From Armatimonadota bacterium (lineage in GTDB: Bacteria > Sysuimicrobiota > Sysuimicrobiia > Sysuimicrobiales > Kaftiobacteriaceae), in NCBI GenBank assembly GCA_016193565.1, contig JACPRY010000045.1, positions 1-38,259 on the forward strand: 38,259 bases of DNA, given 5' to 3'. This document shows, piece after piece, positions 3,523 to 33,568 of the stretch. Position 1 is the stretch's first letter, and each line of letters begins with the position of its first letter. The notes beneath the pieces were generated by a model. The model searched no databases. It saw nothing but the letters and a program-made list of their open reading frames with translations, and was not told the origin of the DNA. Both the position numbers and the translations under genes were made by a program.

Positions 3523-3534
3523 GTGTCAGTGACC

Positions 3535-3562
3535 GTTCCCGGTTCCCCGTTCCCGGTTCCCC
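3535..3562. repeat. Heptad tandem repeat (GTTCCCS)x4
   Basis: gttcccg gttcccc gttcccg gttcccc between the paaC stop and paaD start. Confidence 0.9.
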
Positions 3563-3566
3563 TCTG

Positions 3567-17056: not shown

Positions 17057-17123
17057 GGGTTGAAGGTTGAATGTTGAAGGCACAATGCTTTCACCTTCAA
17101 CCTTGGACCTTCAACCTTCAACG
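17057..17123. repeat. Heptad-repeat hairpin (GGTTGAA)n / (TTCAACC)n
   Basis: ggttgaa ggttgaa tgttgaa gg ... ttcaacc ttggacc ttcaacc ttcaacg; the rpmF stop codon lies inside. Confidence 0.9.
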
Positions 17124-21413: not shown

Positions 21414-21478
21414 CGGGAACCGGGAACCGTAATGGTATTTACCGTTCACCGTTCACCGTTCCCCGTTCCCGGTTCCCG
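21414..21478. repeat. Heptad-repeat hairpin (CGGGAAC)n / (CCGTTCM)n
   Basis: cgggaac cgggaac cg ... ccgttca ccgttca ccgttcc ccgttcc cggttcc cg between convergent rpmB and hslO; the right arm extends into hslO. Confidence 0.9.
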
Positions 21479-22351
21479 CTTGCCCCACCTCTCGATTAGC
21501 GCATGGACATCCGCTTCATCAAGCAAGTAGCGTCGTCCGCAGAAGTTGCAGCGGACTTCGACCTGCCCCTGTTCTTGCACGATCTCGCGTAGCTCCCGCT
21601 CGCCCAGGCTGACCAGCACGCCCTCCACCCTTCTCCTAGAGCACCGGCAGGCAAACCGCACGACCTGCCTGGCGACGACGCGCGTGCGGACCTCGCCAAG
21701 CGCGGTATCGAGGATTTCCTCGGGACTGCGGCCGGCCGATACCATTGACGTAATCGTGGGCAGCACCTTGGCCCGTTCTTCGAGGTATGCTGCCGTGTGG
21801 TTATCGGCGCCCGGCATCAACTGGACGATCAGCCCGCCGGAGGCGATGACACGTTCGTCGGGCGACACCAGCACGCCGAGCGCCACCAGCGAGGGAATTT
21901 GCTGTGACCGCACAAAGTACGCGGCCAGGTCCTCACCGATTTCTCCTGAAACGAGCGGGACGCTGCCGTGATACGGATAGCGCATGCCGAGGTCCATGGT
22001 GACGTGGAGGGTCCCCCGCCCTACCGCGCCGCCGACATCGAGTTTCCTGCTCGGCGTGAGCGGCAGATGCACTCCCGGATTCGCCACGTATCCGCGGACC
22101 GACCCCGCGGCATCGCCGGTGGCCAGGACGCCACCGAGCGGTCCATCGCCGAGGATCCGGACGGTAACGGTCTGCCCTGATTTCAGCATCGCGCCAATGA
22201 GCCCCGCCGCGGTCAGCGTGCGGCCCAGTGCCGCCGTCGCCGTCGGCGCCGTGCCGTGGCGCCGGCGTGCCTTCTCCACGGCTGTTGTGGTGATGGCAGC
22301 GAGGGCCCTGACGGTCCCATCTTCAGTCATTGTGCGAACCCAGTAGTCGGT
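21446..22351 (-). CDS. hslO: Hsp33 redox-regulated chaperone
   Basis: FACRCSRRRVEG...VRCNFCGRRYLLDEADV; start MTDYWVRTM. Confidence 0.93.
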   Translation of the reverse strand, partial: TDYWVRTMTEDGTVRALAAITTTAVEKARRRHGTAPTATAALGRTLTAAGLIGAMLKSGQTVTVRILGDGPLGGVLATGDAAGSVRGYVANPGVHLPLTPSRKLDVGGAVGRGTLHVTMDLGMRYPYHGSVPLVSGEIGEDLAAYFVRSQQIPSLVALGVLVSPDERVIASGGLIVQLMPGADNHTAAYLEERAKVLPTITSMVSAGRSPEEILDTALGEVRTRVVARQVVRFACRCSRRRVEGVLVSLGERELREIVQEQGQVEVRCNFCGRRYLLDEADVHALIERWGKREPGTGNGER

Positions 22352-23771: not shown

Positions 23772-23783
23772 TCATTGCTCTCT

Positions 23784-23873
23784 ACTGCTCCCCACGCCAG
23801 TATTACCTGGTTCGGGTCCAACGGGTCTGCACCAAGGGGTGCATTCTCAGCCCGGCTATCCCGAGCTCCCCAG
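23784..23873 (-). ncRNA. TPP riboswitch (THI element)
   Basis: Minus strand: ggggagctcgggatagccgggCTGAGAatgcacc...ggtgcaGACCCgttggacccGAACCaGGTAATACTGGCGtGGGGAGC. Confidence 0.92.
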
Positions 23874-23917
23874 TTGCTACACTATTCAACTGTCAGAACT
23901 ATTCTAGCACCTGCCTT

Positions 23918-24912: not shown

Positions 24913-25431
24913 CTATCGCGAAGACGGCGCGAGGTTACGCAGCAACAGCGCCGTGGGAAGCGCCACGATGAGCCCGCCCACGACCTGAAAGATGTTTCCC
25001 GGCACCTCCGCGCCCGCCGCCGCCACACCGATCCGCATGATGTAGGCCTCCGCCAGGAAGTACCCCAGTACCATCACAGTCCCACCGGCGGCGATGGCAC
25101 CGATTGCGCGCGCCACACCGGCGGCCGTTGGCGCAGGGGCCCGGGCAGCCTGCCAGGCGATCAGCCCGACGATCAGCCCTTCCAGTCCCTTGATGACAAG
25201 CGTGTACGGGGCGAACTGCCCGTACCCACCGATGAGGTCGGCCAGCGCGGAGCCGATACCCCCGGCCAGCAGGCCGGCCAGCGGGCCAAACAGCAGTGCC
25301 GAGATGTACACCATGGAATCGCCCAGGTTGATGTATCCCTGCGTCGCTGGGACCGGGATGCGGATCACCAACGTCGCCACCGTGGTCAGCGCGATCAGCA
25401 GTGCCGTCAGTGTCAATTGTCTCGTGCTCAT
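24913..25431 (-). CDS. ECF transporter S component, probably riboflavin (RibU function inferred from FMN riboswitch)
   Basis: Small 5-6 TM protein YINLGDSMVYISALLFGPLAGLLAGGIGSALADLIGGY; leader carries an FMN aptamer. Confidence 0.8.
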   Translation of the reverse strand: MSTRQLTLTALLIALTTVATLVIRIPVPATQGYINLGDSMVYISALLFGPLAGLLAGGIGSALADLIGGYGQFAPYTLVIKGLEGLIVGLIAWQAARAPAPTAAGVARAIGAIAAGGTVMVLGYFLAEAYIMRIGVAAAGAEVPGNIFQVVGGLIVALPTALLLRNLAPSSR

Positions 25432-25465: not shown

Positions 25466-25497
25466 TAAAATCAAAGACGCCCGAACTCGGGCGTCTT
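25466..25497 (-). terminator. Intrinsic terminator (expression platform of FMN riboswitch)
   Basis: AAGACGCCCGAgtTCGGGCGTCTT followed by TGATTTT on the minus strand. Confidence 0.85.
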
Positions 25498-25591
25498 AGG
25501 GGCGACTCAGGCGCCTGATCCCCGCAGCCGTCACCTCATACGGACTGTACCGTCGACCCCGGAATTCCACCGGGCCACGACCCTAACCACC

Positions 25592-25667
25592 GGTCGTAGG
25601 TCGTGGGTCATTGGTCGTGGATACTGCTTAGCCATTCCCACGACCTACGACCTACTACCTACGACCC
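25592..25667. repeat. Heptad-repeat hairpin (GGTCGTA)4 / (ACGACCT)4
   Basis: ggtcgta ggtcgtg ggtcatt ggtcgtg g - loop - cc acgacct acgacct actacct acgacc. Confidence 0.93.
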
Positions 25668-25708
25668 GCAGTCAGGACCTCACGGGCTGTCACCGCCGAT
25701 CGGGAATT

Positions 25709-25812
25709 ACCCTAACTGACGATCGTCGATGGTCGTTTGTCGATGGTCGATCCTACCTGGTGTCGTTCTATCGACGATCGACTAGCGACGAACGACAAAC
25801 GTCTGTCAGGGC
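25709..25812. repeat. Heptad-repeat hairpin (GTCGNNN)n / (CGACNNN)n inside FMN riboswitch P2/L2
   Basis: gtcgatg gtcgttt gtcgatg gtcgatc ... cgacgat cgactag cgacgaa cgacaaa; ends accctaactgacg / gtctgtcagggc pair. Confidence 0.9.
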
Positions 25813-25933
25813 TCACCCTGCCCCAGAAGGCTGCGAGCCTTCGGTACTTCAACCCTCATAATACACAAGTCTGCGTGGCGTGCACAGTCGAACAGTCTAC
25901 ACAGCCGCGGCGCACAGGACTCATCAGAACCCA

Positions 25934-33454: not shown

Positions 33455-33568
33455 CGTCCATTGCGTCCATTGCGTCTATTGCGTCCGTTGCGTCTTTTGC
33501 GTTACCTGCGTTCAATAGCTAGAGACGCAATAGACTCAATGGACGCAATAGACGCGACAGACGCAGTT
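33455..33568. repeat. 9-nt-repeat hairpin (CGTCYATTG)7 / (GACGCAATA)5
   Basis: cgtccattg cgtccattg cgtctattg cgtccgttg cgtcttttg cgttacctg cgttcaata gctaga gacgcaata gactcaatg gacgcaata gacgcgaca gacgcagtt. Confidence 0.93.

Follow-up and report, generated by a model that had tools for sequence, protein, structure and literature searches.

The FMN riboswitch on the minus strand of the window (the whole 38,259-nucleotide stretch of Armatimonadota DNA analysed here) is very probably a regular member of its class, in which two arms, P2a and P4, appear to have been enlarged by hairpins of a kind that is dispersed in the genome; from comparison with the switches of relatives, the hairpins are predicted to be passive and the switch to be still in working order.

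The aptamer extends from P1 to P1 over positions 25524-25834 (GCAGCC at 25829-25834, GGCTGC at 25524-25529), and its identity, proposed in a sequence-only reading of this DNA, was confirmed with Infernal: the covariance model RF00050 matches at 25526-25724 on the minus strand over its full length (model positions 1-138), with 53.3 bits and an E value of 1e-10. This score is below the RF00050 gathering score of 66.2 because the inserts described below incur penalties, and for this reason scanning the window against Rfam with default settings yields a TPP riboswitch and a tRNA, and misses the FMN switch. Owing to the same inserts, the Infernal alignment takes insert bases for P1. The only Rfam-type matches in the window are FMN, TPP, one tRNA and a chance microRNA-hairpin; the TPP riboswitch (23772-23882, minus strand) lies ahead of thiT, shortly downstream of the gene that follows the FMN switch.

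The conserved core can be recognized in full. The junction and T-loop blocks (GGGGCAGGGTGA/AATTCCC, CGGCGGT, AGCCCG, CCGGTG..TCCGG and GACGGTA.AGTCCG) are identical to those of the ribU switches of relatives, and both P5 with its L5 T-loop (CCGGTGGAATTCCGG, 25558-25573) and P6/L6 (GACGGTACAGTC, 25543-25554) are intact on the minus strand, as judged from the sequence, the RF00050 match and the block comparison. On the 3' side of the aptamer there is an intrinsic terminator with a 10-bp stem and a T-rich tail (25474-25497, minus strand), which is also seen in the centroid structure; the ribU leaders of relatives carry the same terminator hairpin. The regulated gene (24913-25431, minus strand) encodes a RibU-like S component of an ECF riboflavin transporter (PF07155, E = 1.6e-41; the NCBIfam matches of its product are all under the cut-off), and thus the switch has both a flavin-related gene downstream and a terminator as expression platform. 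The claim of the earlier reading that the other aptamer elements, P1 and the terminator are intact is borne out by these comparisons. Since the core, P1, the terminator and the gene are all intact, the switch probably still binds FMN and still switches. A single-strand fold of the whole leader prefers a global structure in which parts of the core are paired otherwise. Energy models often mispair multi-junction aptamers in such a way.

The switch is split after GGGGCAGGGTGA by 104 nt (25709-25812), beyond which the minus strand continues with AATTCCCGATCGGCGGT. The insertion point is exactly in L2, with GGGTGA before the insert and AATTCCC after it, and removal of the insert produces GGGGCAGGGTGA-AATTCCC, the exact consensus of the relatives, just as had been read from the sequence. 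It folds end to end into a single hairpin, to which we refer as P2a (L2 T-loop, UGA|AA), with an energy of -50.1 kcal/mol and a z-score of -7.5, a value that none of 200 shuffles equalled; GTCG and CGAC tetrads pair in register, as also claimed earlier, and each symmetrical internal loop is made of 3-nt spacers. The four outermost base pairs, GCCC/GGGT, are probably the riboswitch's own short P2a, and the heptad hairpin proper, TGACAGACG...CGTCAGTTA (25713-25808, minus strand), would then be the part within them, as its ends suggest when compared with those of other copies. The lag-7 identity of the insert is 0.51. The insert, a simple hairpin built from degenerate heptads, partially matches 13 other places in its own genome, mostly with a single arm, and has no identical copy elsewhere in that genome.

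The precision with which deletion restores the consensus is also what would be expected of a self-removing element, intron-like or a ribozyme, or of an assembly artefact; this we consider extremely improbable. A self-splicing or catalytic insert was rejected, as no intron, ribozyme or other catalytic RNA family is matched in the window (Rfam/Infernal), while the degeneracy of the heptads and the lack of an identical copy make the collapse of repeats during assembly unlikely, and independent genomes show the same design. An extra known aptamer was likewise not found in the insert. Among the four options that the sequence-only reading had offered, evidence was obtained neither for an additional sensor nor for a self-removing element, and the intactness of the core makes a broken switch less likely; the option with the strongest support is the tolerated peripheral stem.

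A second heptad hairpin, which was absent from the earlier reading, fills P4 (25582-25676, minus strand) with the unit GGTCGTA/GGTCGTG. For the stretch 25582-25690 the folding energy is -63.4 kcal/mol (z = -7.0), and lag-7 arrays are found within the hairpin at 25591-25620 and 25634-25670. The hairpins in L2 and P4 resemble each other at their ends, where TGAC...GTTA is enclosed by a C-rich/G-rich base.

It had been proposed that L2 is an unexpected place for such an insertion, and this view is not supported by our data. We took the 32 FMN switches of the order (from this genome and its relatives) that could be divided into core blocks and loops, and found a hairpin at exactly GGGTGA|...|RATTCCC in 30 of them, with a length of 10 to 109 nt, usually 13 to 33; the two exceptions are the other FMN switch of the same genome (L001) and one further switch (L053). 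In a set of 20 distinct P2a bases, in which 97.5% of the cells of the scored structure are paired, all 5 P2a pairs vary on both sides, and the covariation score of 0.541 compares with 0.155 for shuffled data (0 of 500 shuffles as high). A pattern search of 291 genomes listed 36 exact matches, 33 of them with an L2 hairpin, among which are 5 genomes outside the order. Helices that interrupt the L2 T-loop were already described in 2007, within its GNR triloop (PMC2258182). Occupancy, covariation and the genomes outside the order rule out L2 as an abnormal insertion site: a P2a hairpin at this exact position is the rule in the order. As a separate observation, two FMN switches, L076 and L080, have an enlarged L5 (72 and 17 nt, versus 6); since these are enlarged too, L2, L3, P4, L5 and L6 all accept extensions in the order.

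That the insertions might have broken the switch, leaving ribU unregulated or off, was considered in view of the score under the gathering threshold and of the part that L2 takes in the L2-L6 contact. In this contact the adenine A90 of L6 intercalates between A21 and A22 of L2, that is, between positions 4 and 5 of the T-loop UGAAA (PMC3764141). The insert of the window falls between T-loop positions 3 and 4, and because the adenine gap is between 4 and 5 the contact may well persist. The low score is accounted for by the insert penalties, the conserved blocks, P1, terminator and ribU reading frame are all intact, and equally long inserts persist in two genomes of a related genus (G006 and G008 of genus g4) with intact cores; loss of the switch is thus very improbable.

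Neither of the two hairpins is peculiar to the riboswitch, an aspect that was also missing from the earlier reading. By pattern searches of the genome and a 0.45-Mb sample of its contigs, we found 75 matches (37+38) to GTCGNNNGTCGNNNGTCG in the 1.74-Mb genome, where the reversed pattern gave 0; the frequency is similar in the single other genome of the genus (42+32 matches), and other genomes of the same family have 0 or 1 match. G058, from an unrelated lineage, is also rich in GTCGNNN (67+45 matches versus 8+7 for the reversed pattern). Tandem arrays in the 0.45 Mb number 52 at lag 7, 15 at lag 8 and 10 at lag 9, versus 0 or 1 at lags 4 to 6 and 10 to 13. The reverse complement of a 9-mer occurs within 120 nt for 38 of 66 lag-7 arms, 11 of 15 lag-9 arms and 3 of 19 lag-8 arms (control, 1-4%). 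The units are varied (GTCGNNN, GTGAATG, GGGAACG, GGGCTTC, GTTGAAG, GCGGTAAC, TATTGAATC), and the hairpins are about 50 to 140 nt long. Many copies end like TAACTGACG...CGTCAGTTA; in a strict search, AACTG/AACTA adjoins 5 or 6 of the 52 arrays per side, versus a background of 2%. The genome sample (L100-L138) also contains dispersed arrays of 8 nt (GCGGTAAC) and 9 nt (TATTGAATC, GTGTAGACT), several of which are hairpins. These copies rule out an insert unique to the riboswitch of the window.

Within the window the other copies are located in intergenic gaps or at the end of a gene. Tandem-unit arrays, mostly hairpins, can be recognized at 3530-3565 and 21414-21478 (both GGGAACC), 17057-17117 (TTGAAGG) and 33460-33567 (the 9-mer TATTGCGTC); the GGGAACC heptad hairpin at 21446-21488 extends over the 3' terminus of the Hsp33 gene, whose last residues, KREPGTGNGER, it encodes. 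Open frames at the sampled arrays are shorter than those at random positions (median 254 versus 480 codons). Strong targeting of riboswitches was set aside on a judgement by eye, in which the two hairpins of the riboswitch fit this general intergenic preference. Long hairpins occur at about 1 per 10 kb in this genus, 0 to 0.25 in most other sampled genera, and 1.0 to 2.6 in genus g4. As for a mobilizing activity, the genome contains four candidate Y1-type transposases; in the sequence examined, around some of the four, there was neither adjacency to the hairpins nor sharing of their ends, and a RAYT/Y1 link was set aside. Neither a target-site duplication nor a transposase could be assigned to them.

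The history of the L2 extension is best seen in the orthologous FMN switches of three species of genus g4, which have common flanks and differ in the length of L2: 14 nt in G004 (GACCCTTCGGGGTC), 99 nt in G006 and 91 nt in G008. The long loops of G006 and G008 have a period of 7 nt (lag-7 identity 0.55-0.56) with different units, and occur together with intact cores. Heptads of this type (CAGTNRN) are dispersed in both genomes; in G006 the reversed control is not neutral, being similar to the complementary arm. In the G006 hairpin the outer pairs, GACC/GGTT, match the basal pairs of the short P2a in G004, and the GCCC/GGGT of the window corresponds to the short P2a bases of its relatives; from this matching of the outer pairs, the tip of P2a appears to be where the hairpins are inserted or grow. 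In G001, of the same genus as the window, no ribU match was found, and because of this there is no empty site within the genus for the switch of the window.

Six FMN switches of genus g4 (L169-L174, at G004:C109; G006:C32 and C103; G008:C13, C156 and C246) carry in L6 a hairpin of 69-71 nt with an almost invariant 20-bp stem (AGCCCCGTTCCAAGTCGGCAG...), and all its matches fall within FMN switches or immediately beside them. L2 of the G008 ribU switch and L3 of G006:C16 hold a similar hairpin. The 69-nt L6 hairpin, found only in or beside FMN switches, and the recurrence of long hairpins in several loops among the FMN switches of three species would agree with the large P2a and P4 hairpins being selected functional additions, such as an extra sensor, a thermostable clamp, or a site for a protein or RNase. 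We regard this as improbable for the insert of the window, because like hairpins occur at many unrelated intergenic sites, neither the sequence nor the length of the insert is conserved between orthologues, and the other FMN switch of the same genome is without the extension.

Our preferred reading is that of passive enlargement. A short additional hairpin, P2a, is usual in the L2 T-loop of this order, and the P4 stem is variable; in this lineage the apical loops of both would have received, or given rise to, copies of a tandem-unit hairpin that is dispersed in the genome, by transposition or slipped replication (both were considered), enlarging each arm to about 100 nt. The enlarged arms are predicted to be directed away from the FMN pocket, so that the aptamer would still fold, bind FMN, stabilize P1 and let the terminator form: in the FMN-bound state transcription would terminate and the riboflavin transporter would be off, with the large hairpins carried along as passengers.

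These results can be compared with known systems. FMN riboswitches with a helix in the L2 T-loop share with the one described here all the conserved blocks, P1 to P6 and the point of insertion in the GNR triloop (PMC2258182); they differ in that the insert of the window is about 100 nt long and consists of dispersed tandem-unit repeats, and in that P4 holds a second one. The inverted heptamer repeats of Xanthomonas are intergenic pairs of convergent imperfect arrays of a 7-nt unit, GGGAATC, with the capacity to form stem-loops, at about 70 per genome (PMC4692102). The hairpins of the window are similar to these in design, with convergent 7-nt units in both arms and an intergenic dispersal, but belong to a different family: the units here are GTCGNNN or GGTCGTA rather than GGGAATC with its G-quadruplex potential, many units occur including 8- and 9-mers, the ends are often near TAACTGACG...CGTCAGTTA, and copies are found inside a riboswitch. 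REP and REPIN elements, GTAG/CGTC-tagged palindromes of 20-40 bp without internal tandem heptads (PMC3733652), are likewise short, dispersed and intergenic, and the genome encodes Y1-type transposases; the present hairpins differ in their length of about 50-140 nt and their tandem heptads, and no transposase could be linked to them. Thus the riboswitch class, the L2 extension and the paired inverted heptamer arrays (in Xanthomonas) were already known; in the literature searched we found no mobile hairpins inside riboswitches, and no dispersed repeat hairpins in two riboswitch arms recurring in sister lineages.

Enlarged switches of this type drop under the Rfam reporting threshold and are therefore overlooked in annotation. 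As L2 hairpins range naturally from 0 to 109 nt while the core is nearly constant, they make it possible to measure how much extension the T-loop contact tolerates. It is also conceivable, if rather unlikely, that the loops of FMN switches are preferred sites for the landing or growth of hairpins in this family, and that the hairpins become lasting structural domains; if so, the L6 module of genus g4 would be a captured, sequence-conserved domain. More generally, the present case shows a possible source of the variable outer domains of riboswitches, namely dispersed repeat hairpins caught at the tips of stems, with sister species supplying the short and the long states of one and the same switch.
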